10,023 nucleotides of DNA. Source: Marinagarivorans sp. UBA5870. GTDB taxonomy: Bacteria > Pseudomonadota > Gammaproteobacteria > Pseudomonadales > Cellvibrionaceae. Where the stretch lies: the NCBI GenBank assembly GCA_002432555.1, contig DJFO01000203.1, positions 3,660 through 13,682 on the forward strand. The letters run 5' to 3'. The notes under the pieces were generated by a model. That model saw only the letters and a program-made list of their open reading frames with translations. It searched no databases and was not told where the DNA came from. How positions within the stretch are numbered: the stretch's first letter is position 1; each line of letters begins with the position of its first letter. A program made the position numbers and the translations under genes. Positions 1 through 9,657 of the stretch are shown one piece after another.

Positions 1-733
1 GCCATAAACCCACCCGCCATTTCTCCGCGGCAATCTTGGGCAGCGACACGCGATATTCGAGCTGGCTGTCCTGCCGCGTGAAACGCTGCTGCGGATCCAA
101 TACCACTAGCGGAATATCCGGCTGACGCTCGTGGCTCGGTAGACTGAGCTGCATCAAAAATGCGCCCTGGTCCCGGTCCCAGGCGTCGGCCGCGAGCCCT
201 ATGCTCGTGAGATTGTGAAACCGTACCGTCAACTCACAATTGGCCGGATCGATGCGAGCCGTGTGGACCGCTATGTCCGGCTGGGTATCGGGGATTTTTT
301 CCCCGGCAATCTGCCCTTTGCCGGGCACGCAGTCCATGCTCTCCCGCAAGGCATCATTCGCGGCACCGTAGTCGAGAAATTCCCCTTCGAGTTGTATTTT
401 TACTCCCATAGGTTTGGGGTTGGAGGCGAAGGATTTGCGCGATTGAATTTTAAGCGTTCCGCCGGTCGGCTGGAGTGCTCGTTTTTTATCCAGTGCGCGC
501 AGGGAATTCATCTCCTCCTGCTCGCCGCCTTTTTCCAAGACCACATAGGCCGGGCGCACCGACAGGTAAAACGCCTCCGGCAATTCCCGGCCGTAATTCT
601 TCAGTGTGATCTGAGCGCGGCAGCGGCGGTCCAGTTCCACCGCGGCTATGCCTAGATCCAGGTCCTCGTGCGCTGCGGCCTGCTGGCTTAGCGCCAGCAA
701 ACCGAAAGCGCGTAACATCGATTTAAAATTCAT
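1..733 (-). CDS. Exported protein with two CARDB-like Ig repeats, partial (3' end beyond left edge)
   Basis: The open frame starts at the ATG 733-731 and is still open at base 1 (244 residues visible). Residues 1-21 form a signal peptide with a likely cleavage after Ala-Ala-Ala21 and no lipobox, so the product should be periplasmic or exported. Two segments resemble each other: about residues 24-118, beginning DLGIAAVELD with Cys38, and residues 152 onward, beginning PDIAVHTARID with Cys166. Each has a D-hydrophobic start, a Cys at the same place and then a strand ending in N-Y-G or N-L-T. This is the look of tandem Ig-like CARDB domains, which is a weak family call. The start codon lies inside the end of the receptor gene (11-base overlap), so it is probably translated by coupling. 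It is likely an accessory or binding partner of the receptor; the substrate is unknown. Existence of the gene is much surer than its fold. Confidence 0.8.
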   Translation of the reverse strand, partial: MNFKSMLRAFGLLALSQQAAAHEDLDLGIAAVELDRRCRAQITLKNYGRELPEAFYLSVRPAYVVLEKGGEQEEMNSLRALDKKRALQPTGGTLKIQSRKSFASNPKPMGVKIQLEGEFLDYGAANDALRESMDCVPGKGQIAGEKIPDTQPDIAVHTARIDPANCELTVRFHNLTSIGLAADAWDRDQGAFLMQLSLPSHERQPDIPLVVLDPQQRFTRQDSQLEYRVSLPKIAAEKWRVGLW

Positions 734-2804
734 AGGCAATTTTTATCCGCGCCGTGCGCGGCACAAAGCTGTGGACGTGATGGTCGGCCACGGGTGCGGA
801 CTCGCCCTGCAGCTGAGACTCATAAAAGTATTCAATGTCGTAGCCTCCGGAATCGAACAGGTTCAGCACACTCAGGTCGGCGCGCCAGGCTCCATCGCTG
901 GCATAACCGATTTTTAAGTCCGCCTTAACGGAACCGGCGGCGCGTTGACCCTCGTCCAGAGCATAGTCGCCCAAATACCGCCAGGCGAACGAAGCCTGCC
1001 AGGCATCGCCCCAGGCATAGGCGGTGCGCAGGCTGATCACTCGGTCCAGAGCACCGGCGATCTCCCGGTGCTGCAGATTTTTATCTTGCAGTCTACTGCG
1101 GGAGCGGGATACGTCTAAAGAAATCTGCCAGTTGTCCTGCAGATGATAAGCCACGCCCAACTCGGCACCGAAGCGGCGGCTCTCGGCTCCGGAATCTTCC
1201 GTGGTGCCCGCGTCGCCGACAAAAAGCAATTCCGAATCCACCTGCAACGCCCAGATCGACGCCGATAACTGCCAGCGCTCGTCCGCCGAACGCCAGTCGC
1301 CGCCAACCTCGGTGCCATCGACAGGCACCAGGGGATCGGCGGGCTCAATCGTCTCTCCGCTGACGGGATCCAAAGTGGCGAGCACTCCGCGGGCATCGTT
1401 ACTGTGGTAGCTGCGCCCTAAATTCCAATAGAGTTCGCTGCGGTCCGACAGGGCGAACCGGTTGCGCAGGGCGCCGGTGAACAGCTGATCGCTGCGCTCA
1501 CCACCGTTGGCGACGAGGGTCTGGGCAGCGGCGGCGGACAAGGGCTGCACGTCGAAGTGGTGGTAATTCCAGCGAAGGTTAAAGGTACTGGTCCATGGCG
1601 GCAGCACCTGCACCGCCATCTGCCAGTAAAGTGCGTTGCTCCATTGGTTTACCTCATCCTGGCGGACTGTTCCGGTGGTGACACGGGCACTGGAGCGCAG
1701 GAGGCCCACGGGATCGACAGCGTCGAATCGCCCGTTCCAGCCAAAGGTATGAGAAGCCTTGAGGCCGAAAATGTAACTTTGCGCGTGAGTCCAGGCAGCG
1801 TCGCCCCCCACCAAGGTGCGCTCGTCCTGCTGCTGGAATTGGTCCCCCGCCGGATCGGTGAAATAGGAAAAATTCGACCAAAGATCCATGCCGTAACGCA
1901 CCGCATAGGCCGTGGCAAACCAGGCGCTCTCGCTCAGGTGCACCCGTTTCTGTAACGCGAGGCTGTAACGATAAGACTCGCCGCCGCTCGAGGGGTCCAC
2001 CGTGGAGAGCCGGGAGAGCGCGCCGCTCGCGATGGCGCGGGCGGGTATTTGGTCGGCGGAATTCCAACGATTGTCGTACGCCATCAGGCTGACATCGAGG
2101 CCGCTTTCCAGACCGCCACTGGCGTACTTCAACCACACGTTGGTTTTGCGTACGTCCTCATCGAGGTTTTCCCAGGGACCGTCGTAACCTTGAAATTCTC
2201 CGGCGAGCAACCAGTTGCCGGCACCGGCCGCTCGCTGACCGGCGAGCAGCGCCCGGTGGTAACCAAAACCACCGGCTTCCACGGAAAACAAATTGCCAGG
2301 TAAAAACGCGGCGGTTTTGAGGTGCGCCTCTCCGGTGCCGGAAAAATCTCCGAGGTCGCTGTAGAAAGGGCCCTTGCGGTAGTCGATGGTCTGCACCAGC
2401 TCCGGAATTAAAAAATTGAGATCGGTGTAACCCTGACCGTGGCCGTGGCTGACCATGTTCACCGGCATGTAATCCACGCGGGTCGCAAAGTCGGTGCCGT
2501 GATCGAGATTGAAGCCGCGCAAAAAATATTGGTTGGCCTTTCCGGACCCCGAATGCTGAGTCGCCACCAATCCCGGCACCAGCTCGAGCACATCGCCCGG
2601 GCGCTCGAGGGCAAGATTGTCGAGATATTGCCGGTCGACAAAGCCGGCGTTGGTGCCGCGCACGGCACTACTGCTTTGGGTTTTTCGACCGACCACCAAA
2701 ACTTCTTCGATGATGCCCGTGTGGGCGTAAATCTGCGGGCTTATACCGGCGGGAATGACACCTAGCAAAAAAGGCCAAAATCGGTAGCGCCTGTCATTTG
2801 TCAC
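723..2804 (-). CDS. TonB-dependent outer-membrane receptor
   Basis: A 693-residue protein of normal length for the family, importing an unidentified ligand across the outer membrane with energy from TonB-ExbBD. Residues 1-27 are a signal peptide (cleavage near IYA|H). A TonB box follows at about 31-38 (IIEEVLVVG). The plug covers about 45-165 and contains FLRGFNLDHGTDFA (94-107) and the histidine-rich SHGHGQGYTDLNF (119-131). The remainder is a barrel ending in ARIKIAYEF, with the terminal Phe expected for outer-membrane insertion. The GTG start is supported by AGAGG eight bases upstream; there is no in-frame ATG nearby. The downstream exported gene overlaps it by 11 bases. No FecA-type N-terminal signalling domain is present, so control is probably at transcription, perhaps through the paired dyads upstream. 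The ligand cannot be read from the sequence; a metal, a siderophore or a saccharide are all possible. Confidence 0.93.
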   Translation of the reverse strand: MTNDRRYRFWPFLLGVIPAGISPQIYAHTGIIEEVLVVGRKTQSSSAVRGTNAGFVDRQYLDNLALERPGDVLELVPGLVATQHSGSGKANQYFLRGFNLDHGTDFATRVDYMPVNMVSHGHGQGYTDLNFLIPELVQTIDYRKGPFYSDLGDFSGTGEAHLKTAAFLPGNLFSVEAGGFGYHRALLAGQRAAGAGNWLLAGEFQGYDGPWENLDEDVRKTNVWLKYASGGLESGLDVSLMAYDNRWNSADQIPARAIASGALSRLSTVDPSSGGESYRYSLALQKRVHLSESAWFATAYAVRYGMDLWSNFSYFTDPAGDQFQQQDERTLVGGDAAWTHAQSYIFGLKASHTFGWNGRFDAVDPVGLLRSSARVTTGTVRQDEVNQWSNALYWQMAVQVLPPWTSTFNLRWNYHHFDVQPLSAAAAQTLVANGGERSDQLFTGALRNRFALSDRSELYWNLGRSYHSNDARGVLATLDPVSGETIEPADPLVPVDGTEVGGDWRSADERWQLSASIWALQVDSELLFVGDAGTTEDSGAESRRFGAELGVAYHLQDNWQISLDVSRSRSRLQDKNLQHREIAGALDRVISLRTAYAWGDAWQASFAWRYLGDYALDEGQRAAGSVKADLKIGYASDGAWRADLSVLNLFDSGGYDIEYFYESQLQGESAPVADHHVHSFVPRTARIKIAYEF

Positions 2805-3034: not shown

Positions 3035-3055
3035 TTATTCTCACAATGAGAATAT
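3035..3055. promoter_or_regulatory. Candidate operator 1 (ATTCTC-N5-GAGAAT dyad)
   Basis: ATTCTC (3037-3042), ACAAT and GAGAAT (3048-3053) form a perfect dyad that extends to A-CAA-T inside (7-3-7). Outer bases TT and AT are shared with the second copy. The half GAGAAT resembles a Fur half-site variant, but the halves face away from each other compared with a classical Fur box, so the regulator is not identified. It lies about 230 bases upstream of the receptor start and about 215 upstream of the cytochrome start. Confidence 0.6.
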
Positions 3056-3085: not shown

Positions 3086-3106
3086 TTATTCTCTAACCGA
3101 GAATAT
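3086..3106. promoter_or_regulatory. Candidate operator 2 (ATTCTC-N5-GAGAAT dyad)
   Basis: ATTCTC (3088-3093), TAACC and GAGAAT (3099-3104), with the same TT and AT flanks as operator 1. Only the five central bases differ between the two. Centres are 51 bp apart, close to five helical turns, so both sites face the same side of the DNA. A second overlapping dyad, GGTTA-TTCTC-TAACC (3084-3098), is superimposed on this copy. Confidence 0.6.
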
Positions 3107-3271: not shown

Positions 3272-5668
3272 ATGCTCAGTCTCCGGAAGTTTATTCCCAT
3301 ATTTACGGTGTTGTGCGCCGTCGGCTGCGGTGGAGGTGAAGAATCCAGTTCTTCGTCTTCCAGCAGCTCATCGAGCTCGACCAGTTCATCGAGCTCGTCC
3401 AGTTCTTCAAGCTCGACCAGCTCATCGAGCTCGTCCGGTTCCACGACCAGTTCATCCTCTTCATCGAGCTCCTCATCTTCATCGAGTTCCGGCGCGGCGA
3501 CGAGCGAGGTGATCATCCGCGGCCGCGCGCCGGGATTTTGTAAGGTCGACGGCGTAACTGAAACAGTTAACGCAGGCTTTTCCGGAGCCGAATATATCAA
3601 TGCCAACAACCAGGCCGGGGCCGGCGTGGACTGGCAAGTAGTCGCGGGCGAAGCCAAAACCTTTAGCATCCAAGTCCGCTACGCCAACGGTGGAGGCGCC
3701 GCGCGCAACGGGGACCTATCGGTAAACGGTACTCGCATAGCGGCACTCGGATTTCCCGCCACCGGCGCCTGGACAACCTGGCAGATGGCGAATATGCAAG
3801 TCCCGCTGGTCGCGGGCAAAAACACCATTCGAATCCAAGGCACAACGGCGGATGGACTCGCGAACATCGATTATATTCGGGTCGCCGACGGCGGCGTGTC
3901 CCCGGGGGATTGCACTACAGGACCAGGACCAGGACCGGATCCGGTTGATCCGCTGGCGACCGGCAGAGCCATTTACGGTGAGCAGTGCGCCGCCTGTCAC
4001 GGTCCCATGGGCCTCGGCGGAGCGGTGAATCGGCCGCTGGTGAAATGCAATTTGTGCGAAGAATCCGGCGCACTGGAGGATTACATCGCCGTCGCTATGC
4101 CACCTTCTAACCCGGCGGCCTGTGACGAAACCTGCGCAAAGAATGTAGCCCGGTTTATTCTCGAAGAATTTAACAAGGATGAGCCCACGACCGGGGCGAT
4201 GGTCACTGACGTGCGCGTCTGGCGTTTAACCATTCAGGAATATCGCAATACCCTGGCTCAGCTGTTCAAGCTCAATGCCAATTATGCTTGGCAGGAAGGC
4301 CCCACCGATCGGGATTCCGAGGATTCTTTTCATACCGCGTCCGATTTCTTGCAGACCAATGTGACGGTGGCGCGTTATTTCAGTGAACAGAGCGAGCAGA
4401 TCGTTTGGGGATTGAGCGACGCGCAGTTTACGGCTCTCATGAATTGCGCGCCCACCACGGCCACCTGCCTGCGGGATTTCACGCGGGATTTCGCCACGCG
4501 CGCCTTCCGCCGACCGGTCAGCGCCGAAGATGCCGCTTTATACGAAGGCATAGCAACGGGCGCGGAAGGGCTGGAGCGCTATAGACGCATCGCCTACGGC
4601 ATAGTGAACTCGCCGTTTTTCATCTATCGTACGGAAATGGGCAGCGAAGCGAATATCGCCGCAAGCGAAGTGCGTTTGACCGATCACGAGATCGCGAACT
4701 TATTGTCTTACACGCTGCTCGGGGAACCGCCGTCCGCCCAGTTGCTGGCAGCCGCAGCCGCTGGGACCCTCCGCACCGTAGAAAGCTTGCGCACCGTTAT
4801 TGATGAGATGCTTCTGCAACCGCAGGCAACCGCCCGACTGCACCGGTTTCTGCGCGGTTGGCTGCTGATCGACGAAGACAACTGGAAAGATGTGTCGCGC
4901 GATCCGGATGCCTGCGAAGCCTTCGATGACGCGAAAGACGCGCTCAAAGGCGAATTCCAAGGGTTTCTCAACAGCAATGCCACCATGGCGGACGGTTTCT
5001 CGAAGCTGCTGACGGCCTATTTCCCCGAACCCACCGGCGCCCTGCGGGATTTTTACGAATCCGGCAATGATCCGGCGGGCATTGGTCCGCAGCGCCAGGG
5101 TGTGCTCGCCAGCGGTATGTTTGCCGCCTATCACGCGCGCGACGTACGTCCGTCACCCGTGCGCCGAGGTGTGTTCATTCGCGAGCGGCTCCTTTGTCAG
5201 AATTTCGACGTGCCGGACGATGTTCCGCCGCTGAATGAGACCCCTAACGATCCCGCTATAGTGACCAACCGCGATATTTATGAGGACCACGTGAAAAATC
5301 CTGCGTGTTCCACCTGTCACCAGTTCTTCGATCCGCTCGGCTTTACCATGGAAAGCCTGGACGCCTGCGGTCGCTGGCGCAGCATCGACAATGGGCAAGT
5401 GGCCGATACCAGCGGCGAAATTCTCGGTACCGAGTTTAATACGCAGGTCGCGGATATCGACGAACTCAGCACCATGCTCGCCGACCAGAAGCAGGTGCGG
5501 GAATGTTTTATTGGACATGTCTTCCAGTTTTATCGGGGATTACCTTTGAGCGAGGAGCCGAAGGAGTTGATTCAGCAAATTGCTGAAGGATTGCAGGAAA
5601 AAGACCAGTATCGGGAGATTTTGATTCAACTGCTCGCCAACGAGCAGCTACTGGTTCGCAAACGTTAA
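3272..5668 (+). CDS. Polyserine-linked CBM-like, diheme PSD-type cytochrome c lipoprotein (DUF1592/DUF1588 family)
   Basis: I chose the ATG at 3272 (798 residues) because AAGG lies eight bases upstream; a GTG at 3263 would add three residues. Order: lipoprotein signal ending AVG-Cys19, with Gly at +2 (outer-membrane sorting expected); polyserine linker 25-73; CBM6/35-like beta-sandwich about 79-206, ending NIDYIRV; cytochrome c domain from 228 with CAACH (239-243) and a probable Met276 ligand in VAMPPSNP, plus Cys pairs 259/262 and 284/288. Next come PSD3-like (about 315 on, LTIQEYRNTL), PSD5-like (about 400-430, FRRPVS), PSD4-like (about 466-590), PSCyt3-like (about 594-710) with a second heme motif CSTCH (679-683) and FDPLGF, and PSD2-like (725-798). 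These domains are known together in planctomycetes, myxobacteria and some gammaproteobacteria, without a firm biochemical role. A surface redox protein that binds polysaccharide is my inference. Confidence 0.9.
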   Translation: MLSLRKFIPIFTVLCAVGCGGGEESSSSSSSSSSSSTSSSSSSSSSSSTSSSSSSGSTTSSSSSSSSSSSSSSGAATSEVIIRGRAPGFCKVDGVTETVNAGFSGAEYINANNQAGAGVDWQVVAGEAKTFSIQVRYANGGGAARNGDLSVNGTRIAALGFPATGAWTTWQMANMQVPLVAGKNTIRIQGTTADGLANIDYIRVADGGVSPGDCTTGPGPGPDPVDPLATGRAIYGEQCAACHGPMGLGGAVNRPLVKCNLCEESGALEDYIAVAMPPSNPAACDETCAKNVARFILEEFNKDEPTTGAMVTDVRVWRLTIQEYRNTLAQLFKLNANYAWQEGPTDRDSEDSFHTASDFLQTNVTVARYFSEQSEQIVWGLSDAQFTALMNCAPTTATCLRDFTRDFATRAFRRPVSAEDAALYEGIATGAEGLERYRRIAYGIVNSPFFIYRTEMGSEANIAASEVRLTDHEIANLLSYTLLGEPPSAQLLAAAAAGTLRTVESLRTVIDEMLLQPQATARLHRFLRGWLLIDEDNWKDVSRDPDACEAFDDAKDALKGEFQGFLNSNATMADGFSKLLTAYFPEPTGALRDFYESGNDPAGIGPQRQGVLASGMFAAYHARDVRPSPVRRGVFIRERLLCQNFDVPDDVPPLNETPNDPAIVTNRDIYEDHVKNPACSTCHQFFDPLGFTMESLDACGRWRSIDNGQVADTSGEILGTEFNTQVADIDELSTMLADQKQVRECFIGHVFQFYRGLPLSEEPKELIQQIAEGLQEKDQYREILIQLLANEQLLVRKR
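3344..3490 (+). repeat. Polyserine tract with 18-bp tandem repeats
   Basis: Codons 25-73 of the cytochrome gene encode 49 residues, nearly all Ser with a few Thr and one Gly. At 3365-3436 the DNA holds four 18-bp units in register (starting 3365, 3383, 3401 and 3419) with the pattern AG[CT]TC[AT]TC[GA]AGCTCG[AT]CC. They encode SSSSST and SSSSSS alternately. The register and similarity point to growth by slippage or unequal recombination. Polyserine linkers of this kind are characteristic of secreted enzymes of Cellvibrio, Saccharophagus and Teredinibacter. Confidence 0.9.
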
Positions 5669-5695
5669 TCATCCCCTATTCACTTTGCAGACAGT

Positions 5696-5721
5696 GGCGC
5701 GCCAGCTGCGAGCGGCGCGCC
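5696..5721 (+). promoter_or_regulatory. Strong intercistronic hairpin
   Basis: Two copies of GGCGCGCC (5696-5703 and 5714-5721), each self-complementary, pair as an 8-bp GC stem. Inside, GCT/AGC adds three pairs around a GCG triloop with one bulged A. No U-tract follows (CGTAACAAAAAA), so it is not an ordinary terminator. It sits in the 76-base gap between the cytochrome and DUF1552 genes, 23 bases before the second start, and probably acts on mRNA processing or stability, or on relative expression. Confidence 0.65.
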
Positions 5722-5744
5722 CGTAACAAAAAATGAGGCATGAC

Positions 5745-7073
5745 ATGTACAAAAATCCACGCAGAGCACTTTTGAAATCGGCCATGGGCGGGTTGTTGCT
5801 CGCCCCTTTTATGCGCGTTCGTCAATTGGAGGCACAAAACACCCAGCCAAAACGCCTGATTCTGTTCAATGGCGCAGGGTCCCATGTACCGGAATACTTT
5901 CCCACGGGAATGGGGGCGACCTACGCACTGCAGGACGCGCTGGCCCCCTTGCGCGGTCTGGAGCGCGACATGTTGTTTATGCGCGAACTGCACCACGTTG
6001 CCACCCGCGGTAACCACCACGAAGTCGGGATGGTGACCGCCTATAGTGGCGCCGATCCGGGTCCGAACAACGGCCTCGGTCTGCAACCCACGGTGGACCA
6101 ACTGATCGCTCGGCATCTGGCAACAACCTCCCCTACCCCCATTACTTCGGTGGCGCACGGGCTCTACACGGAATTCAACAATCCGCAGCGCTCCTATATG
6201 ACCTATAACGGTCCCAATCAGGCGATCATTCCAGAGCGCAATCCGCTGCGTACCTACACCCGTCTCTTTGATGGTGTCACCAACAATCCCAACCCCACCA
6301 ATCCGACCGGTGTTAGCCGCGATGCGGCGCGATTGAAAGCTTTCGATGTTGCACGCGCCGAACTGGCGGAAATCAAGCGTTATCTGGGTGCCGAGGAAAA
6401 GAATAAGTTGGATTTCCATATCACCTCCCTGCAGGACTTATCGCGCGAACTCGCTATCGACGTGCCCCCGCCATCGGTGAGTTGCCCGGCGGTGACGGTG
6501 GATTCGAATTATGCCAACACTCTGCGCGTTGAAGCAGAGATCGAACGCGGCGTGAAATTGTTGATGGATCTCACCTCCGCCGCGCTGCAATGCGACCGCA
6601 CCCGAGTCGTTACCATTCAAGTGGGCTTCTCCGGCGAGCATTACGTGGGCTTGCGCGGTTTTCGCAAGGGCAATCGCAGCTGGCACGACGAAATTCACCA
6701 CAAAGCGTCCCAGCGCTCGCATCCAGATTATCCGGAATGGTTTTGGATGACCCAACTGTGGGCCCGCCATCTCGCCTATTTAGCGAAAAGCCTCAAGGCG
6801 GTACCGGAAGGCAATGGCACCATGCTGGACAATACGCTCATTTTGTGGGGTTGCGAGATGGGTATTGCGCACAGCCACAGCCCGCGCGACGTGCCCTACA
6901 CCATTATCGGCGGCCGCGGCATGGGGGTGAATACGGGACAGTATCTGCGGTTTGCCCGCTCGGAACCGCACGCCAAATTGCTGACCAGCGTTCAGCGCGC
7001 GTTCGGCATCCAAGCGGCCGGCACGGGTAACCAGCCCAACTGCGGGCCGCTCAATGGTGTGTTGACGACCTGA
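5745..7073 (+). CDS. Tat-exported DUF1552 (HXXSHH family) protein
   Basis: I chose the ATG at 5745 (442 residues) because GAGG lies six bases upstream; an ATG at 5733 in frame would add four residues but has no ribosome binding site. The N-terminus has a twin-arginine signal (Arg6-Arg7 in NPRRALLKSAMGG, then LLLAP), so it should be exported folded, perhaps with a cofactor. The body matches DUF1552: an early RLILFNGAGSHVPEYF segment, GNHHEVGMVTAYSG, and a central H-D-E-I-H-H (314-319) in the place of the HxxSHH motif with Ile for Ser. Near the C-terminus is DNTLILWGCEMG followed by HSHSPRDVPY. The family is distantly related to DUF1501 and to alkaline-phosphatase-like folds; its activity is not established. 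DUF1552 genes are repeatedly found next to DUF1592/DUF1588 cytochromes, as here, which suggests the two act together. Expression is probably from the cytochrome promoter. Confidence 0.92.
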   Translation: MYKNPRRALLKSAMGGLLLAPFMRVRQLEAQNTQPKRLILFNGAGSHVPEYFPTGMGATYALQDALAPLRGLERDMLFMRELHHVATRGNHHEVGMVTAYSGADPGPNNGLGLQPTVDQLIARHLATTSPTPITSVAHGLYTEFNNPQRSYMTYNGPNQAIIPERNPLRTYTRLFDGVTNNPNPTNPTGVSRDAARLKAFDVARAELAEIKRYLGAEEKNKLDFHITSLQDLSRELAIDVPPPSVSCPAVTVDSNYANTLRVEAEIERGVKLLMDLTSAALQCDRTRVVTIQVGFSGEHYVGLRGFRKGNRSWHDEIHHKASQRSHPDYPEWFWMTQLWARHLAYLAKSLKAVPEGNGTMLDNTLILWGCEMGIAHSHSPRDVPYTIIGGRGMGVNTGQYLRFARSEPHAKLLTSVQRAFGIQAAGTGNQPNCGPLNGVLTT

Positions 7074-7491: not shown

Positions 7492-8214
7492 TTACAGCGA
7501 AAAAGAAAATCCCTGCTCGCGAAAGCGCTGGTAGGCGAGCTCATCAAAGGTATAAAGCTCCGCCGCCCGGTGCGCAACGCCCTGCTGCTTTTCCCGGCAA
7601 GGCACAATAAAATTCATTTTCCCCAGTTTGCGGCGAAAGTTGCCCTTGTTATATCGGACATTCAAAATGGCTTCGAAGATCTGCTGCAACTGCAGGAGAG
7701 TAAATTTTTTGGGCATTAAGTGAAATGCGAGGGATTCCCGCGTCAAACGAGAGCGCAACCGATTTAAAGCAAACAACCGAATGTGCTGATAATCCAAAAT
7801 GAAATTCAGCGGCTCGTCCGCATCCCGCCACTGCGCGCCTGCACCGTCCGCTGCCGCGCCCGGCCAAAACACTTCGGGCGGCACCAGGGCGAAGTAACCG
7901 ATGGTCAGCGGCAAGTAATCGTAGATACCGAACACTTTGAGCTGCTCACAATATACCGCGCCCTCCCCTACCAAGTTACGCAGGTGCCGCTGGGCGGAAT
8001 CGTCCACGCTGAGCCCAGGGTGTAGCGGGCCGCCCGGAAGCGTCCACTGGATCTCTTCCTGGACAAACGGCTGGTATTGACGGCAGAGCACCTTCAGGCG
8101 CTGTTCGTGAAATGTGAGAACAACGAAGCGAATTGAAATCGTTTCGGCGGCCGGCCGGACGGACGTGAAGTCCGCCGCAGATCCGTGTACACCTGGGTGA
8201 ATGTCCGAGGTCAT
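7492..8214 (-). CDS. NrtR-like Nudix-winged-helix transcriptional regulator, catalytically dead
   Basis: A 240-residue protein of NrtR-like layout. A Nudix fold spans about 25-135, with Nudix box positions 62-83. A winged-helix DNA-binding domain spans about 155-235 (SLAFHLMPKKFTLLQLQQIF, then YNKGNFRRKL). Aligned to the Nudix consensus GX5EX7REUXEEXG, Gly62, Arg76 and Gly83 are kept, but all catalytic or metal-binding Glu are changed: Leu68, His77, Asn80 and Leu81. Hydrolysis is therefore not expected; in this family the domain senses a nucleotide or sugar-type ligand and controls DNA binding. Family members regulate NAD synthesis (NrtR) or sugar use. No NAD or sugar catabolic gene adjoins it here, so the regulon cannot be named. 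The ATG at 8214 is the only good Met and lacks a strong Shine-Dalgarno. An inverted octamer repeat just upstream may be its own operator. Confidence 0.87.
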   Translation of the reverse strand: MTSDIHPGVHGSAADFTSVRPAAETISIRFVVLTFHEQRLKVLCRQYQPFVQEEIQWTLPGGPLHPGLSVDDSAQRHLRNLVGEGAVYCEQLKVFGIYDYLPLTIGYFALVPPEVFWPGAAADGAGAQWRDADEPLNFILDYQHIRLFALNRLRSRLTRESLAFHLMPKKFTLLQLQQIFEAILNVRYNKGNFRRKLGKMNFIVPCREKQQGVAHRAAELYTFDELAYQRFREQGFSFSL

Positions 8215-8462: not shown

Positions 8463-8480
8463 AAAAAATGCAGATTTTTT
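8463..8480. terminator. Possible weak A/T-only hairpin at the AraC gene end
   Basis: AAAAAAT (8463-8469), GCAG and ATTTTTT (8474-8480) form a perfect 7-bp stem of A-T pairs on either strand, overlapping the stop codon of the AraC-type gene. The stem is too weak for a typical intrinsic terminator. It contains the third ATGCAGAT octamer, so a regulatory role is also possible. Confidence 0.25.
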
Positions 8481-9657
8481 AAGTTTCGGGAGGACCGTTT
8501 TTTCCTTCCGTGCCGTCCATATGCTTCTTGAAGGCCTTTGGTGTGCAGCCATATTCCTTTTTAAAGACGGTGGTGAAGTAAGAGGCGTTGCTGTAACCGA
8601 CCGCATAAGCGATCTCCGCAACACCAAGGTTCGATTCCGACAACAAGCGTGCCGCCTCGGCCAAGCGCAATTTTGTGAGATAAGAACTGAAGGTCAGCTC
8701 TAACTCATCCTTTAAGATCTCGTTGATCTTGGTGCGGTTGATGCCAAGCGCGGCGACGGCGCCCTCCAGACTGAGTTCAGGGTCGGCGAATTCCGTGGTC
8801 ATATAACGTAACAGCGCGACCCGCTCCCGATCCTGCGCCGGTGCCGCCGGCACCTGTTGATAGGCGATCACCGGCCGATCTTGCTGCATTTTTTGCACTA
8901 TATCCTCGATCATCAAGGCGGTGCGCCGCTGGACATACCAATACCCGAAAATCGTCCACATCAAACAAACCAGTCCCGCCGCCAGATACACATAGAGCCA
9001 AATGCGCCCATGCAGGCGCGCCGAACTGAGGGTCACGGCGGAGGGAGTCTCGCGTGGGCTTTGCATCGAATTAATCAGGGCGAACCCGAGCATCCTGTCG
9101 AGCTGGTAGGAGCGGTCCGAGAATTCCGCCCCATTCGCTAACAGCCACCATTCCTGAACTTCCAGGTTCCTCAGATCGACCACCACCTCCCGTTGGTCCG
9201 AATCGCAGGGAAAATAGGCCCGCGAAACTCGATAGGTACCAAAATCGCCCGGCTTGGTAATGGCCGCGTCGTAGGAGTAGAACTCCAGTGTCATGATATT
9301 GTGCGGCACGCAGGTGACGGCCACGGAGAGCGAATGGTAACGCGAAAAATCCACGAGGGTTTCCGGTCGGGAGCGGTCGCTGAACTCGAAGAGAAAGGAG
9401 ACGTAGGGATAGGGAATCGTTTTGCCCAAACGAAAATTAAAGACGAGCTGCTCCTTTTGAATGGCGACCGATATCTCGGATGAGCCCCCGGCCTTGATAT
9501 CGGAGGACAGCTCGGATTGCCAAGGAATGGCACTGGCCGCTTGCGGCAACAGAGGATCGTCGATCTCCGCCAGCCGCCACGTCGTCCCCATCAAAAGACT
9601 GGTCACAGCGGCGAGGATCAACGCCACCAGCGCGGCATATCGACGAAACCTGGGCAT
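8479..9657 (-). CDS. Membrane-anchored AraC-family one-component regulator with periplasmic sensor
   Basis: A 392-residue protein. A first transmembrane helix (about 8-24) is preceded by basic residues (RFRRY). A periplasmic domain follows (about 25-218), of beta-rich character and without a family I can name with certainty; it loosely resembles CIA30 or jelly-roll domains. A second transmembrane helix spans about 220-242, then a cytoplasmic linker, then an AraC DNA-binding domain (about 283-390) with two helix-turn-helices. The first runs over LSLEGAVAALGINRTKINEI; the second begins GVAEIAYAVGYSNASYF and ends with the family signature ending CTPKAFKKH. This layout senses a signal outside the cytoplasmic membrane and binds DNA directly, as in many polysaccharide-degrading gammaproteobacteria. 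The start is supported by GAGGTGG nine bases upstream. Its target genes are not shown by the sequence. Confidence 0.93.
   Translation of the reverse strand: MPRFRRYAALVALILAAVTSLLMGTTWRLAEIDDPLLPQAASAIPWQSELSSDIKAGGSSEISVAIQKEQLVFNFRLGKTIPYPYVSFLFEFSDRSRPETLVDFSRYHSLSVAVTCVPHNIMTLEFYSYDAAITKPGDFGTYRVSRAYFPCDSDQREVVVDLRNLEVQEWWLLANGAEFSDRSYQLDRMLGFALINSMQSPRETPSAVTLSSARLHGRIWLYVYLAAGLVCLMWTIFGYWYVQRRTALMIEDIVQKMQQDRPVIAYQQVPAAPAQDRERVALLRYMTTEFADPELSLEGAVAALGINRTKINEILKDELELTFSSYLTKLRLAEAARLLSESNLGVAEIAYAVGYSNASYFTTVFKKEYGCTPKAFKKHMDGTEGKNGPPET

Follow-up and report, generated by a model that had tools for sequence, protein, structure and literature searches.

Fusions of carbohydrate-binding modules (CBMs) to cytochromes have been reported before (PMC5615132; PMC6004670), and three proteins in which X183 cytochrome c domains are joined to an X132 region have been studied in the articles cited here, namely Cbp2D of Cellvibrio japonicus and TERTU_2913 and TERTU_3803 of Teredinibacter turnerae. 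X132 was described in 2024 as being without a characterised homologue (PMC10916295). According to mutants, Cbp2D and Cbp2E are important for the growth of C. japonicus on insoluble cellulose beyond any help given to its lytic polysaccharide monooxygenase (LPMO), and a novel mechanism of cellulose cleavage has been proposed for the two (PMC12542752). Here, we analyse 10,023 nucleotides of Marinagarivorans sp. UBA5870 (assembly GCA_002432555.1, contig DJFO01000203.1, positions 3,660 to 13,682 of the forward strand), a stretch called the window in the following, which holds a gene for a putative lipoprotein diheme cytochrome (P0001) and, 64 nt apart on the same strand, a gene for a DUF1552 protein (P0002). 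We favour, with moderate confidence, that this pair is a member of an X183-X132 cytochrome plus DUF1552 module of the kind that includes C. japonicus Cbp2D, and that it constitutes a redox unit acting at glycan surfaces. What is new is that the window can be connected to Cbp2D and that DUF1552 emerges as the constant candidate partner, whereas the CBM-cytochrome fusion as such was already known. By sequence or model, the pair is composed as follows.

3272-5668, plus strand: putative lipoprotein diheme cytochrome P0001, 798 residues, with signal peptide, poly-Ser linker, CBM35, X183 and X132 block
3326-3328, plus strand: predicted lipidated Cys19 in the lipobox AVGC, from sequence and the relatives P0008-P0010
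3344-3490, plus strand: Ser-rich linker of 49 residues (25-73), by composition, with a DNA tandem repeat at 3364-3441
3524-3916, plus strand: CBM35 module, residues 85-215
3944-4189, plus strand: X183-type cytochrome c domain, residues 225-306, with CAACH at 239-243 and predicted axial Met276, by alignment to TtX183A
4205-5665, plus strand: X132 block (PSD3-PSD5-PSD4-PSCyt3-PSD2), residues 312-798, with CSTCH at 679-683 as second heme motif
5733-7073, plus strand: DUF1552 (HXXSHH) protein P0002, 446 residues, with twin-arginine R10-R11 and predicted alkaline phosphatase/sulfatase-type fold

A preliminary description of this DNA had suggested an envelope redox module, and this is supported. Both open reading frames (ORFs) are found at the positions listed and carry heme motifs and a signal for twin-arginine translocation (Tat), respectively, by sequence. 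It had further named a 49-residue polyserine linker, a CBM6/35-like module and two CXXCH motifs in a protein of the PSD/PSCyt series, all of which are confirmed: the linker consists of 44 Ser, 4 Thr and 1 Gly, the motifs lie at 239-243 and 679-683, and the module matches solved CBM35 structures such as 2w3j (2e-33), with residues 79-206 giving a carbohydrate-binding fold. Pfam matches above the cut-off are CBM_6 (3e-11), CBM_35 (1.5e-7), Cytochrome_CBB3, PSD4, PSCyt3 and PSD2, and PSD5 (33.8 versus 34.2 bits) and PSD3 (20.4 versus 23) fall just below it. For the X183 domain, two comparisons gave matches to X183A of T. turnerae, known from a crystal structure (8q1v), with E-values of 1.6e-12 and 4.1e-14; Met276 aligns with Met55 of TtX183A, in which heme ligation by His22 and Met55 has been solved (PMC10916295), and the His and Met ligand positions of solved X183 domains are kept. 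Given the matches for CBM35 (2e-33), X183 (1.6e-12) and, in P0002, DUF1552 (2.2e-45), the domain reading of both proteins is no chance result. Searches of the PDB by fold with the P0001 model returned mainly CBM matches. The lipobox claimed earlier is present as AVGC, in which Ala at -3 is atypical so that a strict lipobox pattern does not match; since the relatives P0008, P0009 and P0010 (42-62% identity) have the standard lipoboxes VAGC, LSGC and IAGC, P0001 is likely a lipoprotein by this comparison.

In an alignment of 61 X132 proteins, 59 have the CXXCH motif in register, and no other His or Met is nearly invariant, the best candidates being H673 (35/59) and a Met column (38/59) in which P0001 has Leu. 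The heme of X132 may therefore have an open site or ligands that vary, a state expected of a catalytic heme. Two conserved cysteines, Cys642 (58/59) and Cys745 (53/59), could be joined in a disulfide.

The kinship with CBM-bearing Cellvibrio cytochromes that had been suspected can be made direct by sequence. One of the regions compared (L106, from the family of 144 genomes described below) contains an ORF of 1122 residues in which 89 of 91 residues, all but the last two, agree with the X183 sequence of PDB 7b21, an entry labelled cbp2D. Its C-terminal part matches DUF1587, DUF1595, DUF1592 and DUF1588 in Pfam, while the same part has been annotated as DUF1587 plus X132 (PMC8981238), and from these two readings the CAZy region X132 corresponds to the Pfam series PSD5/PSD4/PSCyt3. 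A Cbp2E-like ORF of 368 residues lies upstream, and cbp2D is followed after 47 bp by a DUF1552 gene (402 residues, 3e-30) in the same orientation. The order Cbp2E-like, Cbp2D-like, DUF1552 recurs in six further regions (L107, L152, L153, L154, L155 and L163), the Cbp2D-like ORF of L163 having no X183 match. For T. turnerae, genomes G435 and G436 each contain an X183 sequence that matches 8q1v at 100% identity; in G436 it belongs to an ORF of 1431 residues with three X183 domains, a Cip1-like domain and X132, which is TERTU_2913. A second ORF of this type (CBM10, SGL, GSDH, CBM2, X183, X132) fits TERTU_3803 by its domains. DUF1552 genes follow directly downstream of both, at 8 nt and 77 nt, respectively. 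In the available parts of the Cbp2D literature, which do not cover Gardner 2014, no mention of DUF1552 was found.

P0001 has in common with Cbp2D an X183 domain followed by PSD3/PSD5/PSD4/PSCyt3, a CBM, Ser-rich linkers and the DUF1552 gene directly downstream. Cbp2D in turn has CBM2, YceI/X158, a Cbp2E neighbour and also FN3 (PMC8981238), whereas P0001 is a predicted lipoprotein with CBM35 and without YceI, and the window holds no Cbp2E-like gene. As CBM2, YceI/X158 and Cbp2E are absent from P0001 and the five other window ORFs scanned, P0001 is a relative rather than a strict orthologue of Cbp2D. TERTU_2913 and TERTU_3803 share X183, X132 and the adjacent DUF1552 gene with it; TERTU_2913 is likewise a Ser-rich putative lipoprotein, but it has three X183 domains and X122 and lacks CBMs, while in TERTU_3803 dehydrogenase-like domains are combined with CBM10 and CBM2 (PMC10916295). 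The same Pfam domains as in X132 occur in the PSCyt3/PSD genes (DUF1587-1595-1592-1588-1585) of Planctomycetota, Verrucomicrobia and others. In Verrucomicrobia an unknown gene family lies beside PSCyt3 genes and PSCyt proteins are occasionally fused to CBM_6; these proteins are predicted to be periplasmic or cytoplasmic (PMC5615132), in contrast to P0001 with its CBM35, Ser stalk and lipobox. DUF1552 lies close to DUF1592 in one planctomycete and one Polyangiaceae genome. The DUF1800-DUF1501 gene pairs are analogous in their pairing and belong to different Pfam families, DUF1501 also carrying a twin-arginine motif (PMC5122149). As an aside, 2 of 53 X132 proteins match DUF1800 (alignment A4), a hint that the DUF1592 and DUF1800 blocks are related.

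The pairing of X132 with DUF1552 is nearly constant in the material sampled. P0001 as the sole query retrieved no relatives in a genome scan, and a scan with the family alignment A1 gave four distant loci, used solely as an entry to genomes. Searched against an even sample of 299 genomes from the phylum to which a Novosphingobium metagenome-assembled genome belongs, A1 gave some match in 89, with E < 1e-20 in 5 and otherwise short, mostly cytochrome-like matches. Through one of the five, G189, a family of 144 genomes was reached, of which 82 are A1-positive at 1e-15. The preliminary description had made co-occurrence of the two genes in related genomes a point to be checked, and they do occur together: among loci picked from the top matches listed rather than by random sampling, all 38 chosen by X132/X183 match (20 plus 18; the 2-kb stretches L156 and L162, not picked for X132, are excluded) have an adjacent DUF1552 gene on the same strand, and all 20 chosen by DUF1552 have an adjacent X132. 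At the level of ORFs, 45 of 47 X132 ORFs have an adjacent same-strand DUF1552 and 45 of 47 DUF1552 ORFs an adjacent X132, with DUF1552 downstream in 44 of the 45 pairs. The X132 exceptions are L108, where DUF1552 was missed by the ORF filter and is seen on direct translation, and L133, where the ORF is cut by the region edge; the DUF1552 exceptions are L122, likewise cut, and L129 3421-4713. DUF1552 is found at 1e-10 in 75 of the 144 genomes, all within the 82 A1-positive ones, and the remaining 7 have weaker A1 matches (4e-16 to 5e-21). Outside this family, DUF1552 occurs in 6/6 genomes with a strong match and in 0/30 others, and in those six both matches lie close together by listed coordinates save for one place in G003. 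Counting presence only, DUF1552 is found in 22 of 59 genomes of the phylum of G002. Within G351, the divergences of the partners are correlated over 16 pairs (r 0.55, beyond all 2000 shuffles), a correlation for which species phylogeny cannot account. When the neighbouring genes of the window and of 40 regions were clustered, no further universal partner emerged; Cbp2E-like genes are found in 6 genomes.

Several loci are of interest on their own account. Regions L124-L136 come from G351, a genome with a large expansion of the pair, 55 first-look DUF1552 candidates and no LPMO match; in L141 5730-8132 (G356), the X132 gene, which lies beside a DUF1552 gene, is split over two ORFs; and a second small family is found near the pair, in one to two copies, in six genomes (L109, e.g. 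11091-11963, L113, L114, L119, L120 and L121).

Electron supply to oxidative polysaccharide enzymes had been the role first suggested for the cytochrome, and a donor of electrons to copper LPMOs acting on the same polysaccharide is indeed a rival explanation, which we judge improbable. It draws on the finding that the C. japonicus X183 domain alone activates LPMOs, slowly (PMC8981238), on the abstract of the mutant study, which counts lpmo10B, like cbp2D and cbp2E, as one of six genes that cellulose use requires (PMC12542752), and on the genome profile: LPMO_10 is found in 62 of 75 DUF1552-positive versus 28 of 69 DUF1552-negative genomes of the 144 (p 2e-7, uncorrected for kinship; 58/75 versus 28/69 with four weak matches set aside), an association that lifestyle and kinship confound. 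Yet of the four genomes richest in DUF1552, G351 (55 candidates) has no LPMO match and G356 (30), G355 (26) and G358 (22) have just weak ones, though in the next four G440 (16), G304 (14) and G442 (12) have LPMOs and G357 (12) has none. A search of 61 regions (783 ORFs), the window included, with five LPMO queries found no catalytic domain of an LPMO near the pairs, the few matches falling in C-terminal parts of the queries. Moreover, the X183 domains of T. turnerae gave no electrons to its LPMO (PMC10916295). In C. japonicus, growth was like that of the wild type in an lpmo10B single mutant but not in the mutants of cbp2D and cbp2E; a triple mutant was no further impaired when it also lost lpmo10B, whereas additional loss of cbp2D or cbp2E abolished growth of the resulting strain (PMC12542752). 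LPMO electron donation as the main role of the pair is therefore not favoured.

For the partner P0002, the earlier assignment to the HXXSHH proteins holds at the level of the family, since DUF1552 (PF07586) is matched with 2.2e-45 (156 bits versus a cut-off of 30) and a twin Arg is present, while the literal motif fails: the signature reads HDEIHH, with Ser changed to Ile and the His residues kept. Among 61 DUF1552 partners, H318 (61/61) and H322 (60/61) are conserved, and as position 321 is Ser in just 25, literal HXXSHH is a poor mark of these proteins. All 61 have a twin Arg before a hydrophobic stretch, as expected of a Tat substrate. The P0002 model resembles the alkaline phosphatase/nucleotide pyrophosphatase-phosphodiesterase (NPP)/sulfatase-type fold (Foldseek), and a search of PDB sequences with the DUF1552 profile gave nothing convincing, the best match (E 0.0067) being an unrelated oxidoreductase. 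By sequence and model, then, we read a Tat-type signal, a fold of alkaline phosphatase type and adjacency to X132 in nearly all sampled loci.

With such a fold, DUF1552 could be an active phosphatase, phosphodiesterase or sulfatase-like enzyme working on glycan esters, for which the cytochrome would mainly provide docking. Besides the fold, position 375, Asp or Glu in 54 of the 61 partners compared, suggests that part of a metal site may remain, and the PSCyt genes of Verrucomicrobia frequently have sulfatase genes next to them (PMC5615132). Members of the alkaline phosphatase superfamily usually have a metal-binding Asp after strand 1. In the DUF1552 proteins, compared by sequence, the corresponding positions 46-49 are variable, mostly Pro, Gly/Asn and Gly, with Asp at 48 in only 10 of 61, and the strictly conserved set is instead rich in His, near-invariant residues included. 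As such an enzyme would also leave two heme domains unexplained, we judge it improbable as well.

The CBM of P0001 is CBM35-like and nearest to uronate-binding members (36-44% identity to 2w3j, 2w46, 2w87 and 2w47), and the Trp, Asn and Arg of the uronate signature appear to be kept (alignment against the text of PMC9843283). It shares its fold with the CBM35s of a pectate lyase (2w3j), C. japonicus (2w46/2w87) and Clostridium thermocellum (2w47); these known uronate-binding modules ride on a hydrolase, esterase or lyase, whereas that of P0001 rides on a cytochrome. In a Pfam survey of 53 of the 61 X132 proteins (the 8 omitted being the longest ones and otherwise near-duplicates or fragments), CBM_2 was matched in 16, YceI in 14 and malectin in 8. 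Because the CBM differs or is absent among X132 proteins, the core of the module is X132 plus DUF1552, and the CBM is a swappable adaptor. A short X132 ORF outside the survey, L142 12716-14830, has weak CBM35-like matches. In L104 (68-6888 and 16702-19741), which comes from a presumed Marinagarivorans cellulosilyticus genome, the pair is accompanied by several ORFs with CBM35-like modules, one of them a GDSL esterase with CBM10.

The YceI (X158) domains on 14 of the 53 proteins are also what speaks for an extracellular electron-transfer or quinone-linked unit, in which glycan docking would only position the cell: the YceI (X158) type has been found with ubiquinone-8 (PMC8981238), and long-distance electron transfer has been suggested (PMC10916295). 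We judge this explanation improbable too, as it accounts neither for the constant DUF1552 partner nor for the growth phenotype of cbp2D on cellulose.

In the favoured glycan-surface redox unit, the cytochrome would be anchored by lipid in the outer membrane and held out on its Ser stalk, while CBM35 would dock it on a plant-wall glycan bearing uronic acid. DUF1552 would fold in the cytoplasm, be exported by Tat and assemble with X132, and a redox or cofactor-dependent glycan chemistry could take place at the X132 heme and/or at the His cluster of DUF1552. The His/Met heme of X183 would serve as an electron relay to or from the outside, and an LPMO would not be a direct partner. A number of points weigh against this reading, to which the genome association with LPMO_10 given above is to be added. 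Activity, heme content and complex formation of P0001 are proposed from sequence and models; the Foldseek TM-scores of the DUF1552 model are just 0.3-0.4, and this predicted fold by itself shows no function. The signature His in region D2 of the CBM35 seems to be Asn in P0001 (PMC9843283). CBM35 is variable among relatives, since P0007 has a CBM35-like module and the equally close P0008 (62-63% identical) no CBM, the L104 relative lacks a CBM match, and CBM_6/CBM_35 was matched only by P0001 in the Pfam survey; as CBM35 is no fixed part, a glycan is no more than a presumed substrate of the core. Finally, the DUF1552 gene at L129 is truly unpaired, without an X132 neighbour, one of the seven places with DUF1552 in G003 lies on a contig for which no DUF1592 is listed, and the partner correlation over 8 pairs of G356 is not significant (r 0.22, 406/2000 shuffles).

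Four further genes of the window, all on the minus strand, are the following.

2-739, minus strand: gene without Pfam match, overlapping the end of the TonB-receptor gene
723-2804, minus strand: TonB-dependent receptor, weakly matching siderophore, B12 and copper types
7492-8214, minus strand: NrtR/AraR-type NUDIX regulator (Pfam), between the pair and the AraC-type gene
8479-9657, minus strand: AraC-type regulator, separated from the pair by one gene, whose long N-terminal part resembles a membrane-bound sensor, as read from the sequence

The first gene, the TonB receptor and the NrtR-like gene clustered with no gene of 40 compared regions. The AraC-type regulator is probably linked to the pair, judging from gene positions: such a gene stands directly beside the pair in L104, L155 and L169 and one gene away in the window. 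As a part of the module it was considered and rejected, the family being widespread (48/144 genomes) and found at the pair in just 4 fetched regions. Between the divergent TonB-receptor and cytochrome genes lie two perfect ATTCTC-N5-GAGAAT palindromes (3037-3053 and 3088-3104, 51 bp apart), which had no exact match in 143 loci compared and are possibly the operator pair of a regulator.

These findings allow X132 to be equated with a widespread Pfam domain set of unassigned function, and all three X183/X132 proteins studied in the cited articles adjoin a DUF1552 gene whose product has a predicted hydrolase-type fold. DUF1552 is thus a likely overlooked partner of Cbp2D, and this partner might explain why X183 domains tested alone show weak or no activity. 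The boldest reading, which we offer only tentatively and consider unlikely, is that X132 and DUF1552 form a new class of LPMO-independent oxidative glycan-active enzymes, with a catalytic open-site heme in X132, a repurposed His-rich site of alkaline phosphatase type, X183 feeding or draining electrons and a swappable CBM, CBM2 in Cbp2D and CBM35 for a uronate-bearing glycan here, aiming the unit. If this were true, the complex in which Cbp2D and Cbp2E are proposed to cut cellulose would have the DUF1552 protein of C. japonicus as its missing third subunit.

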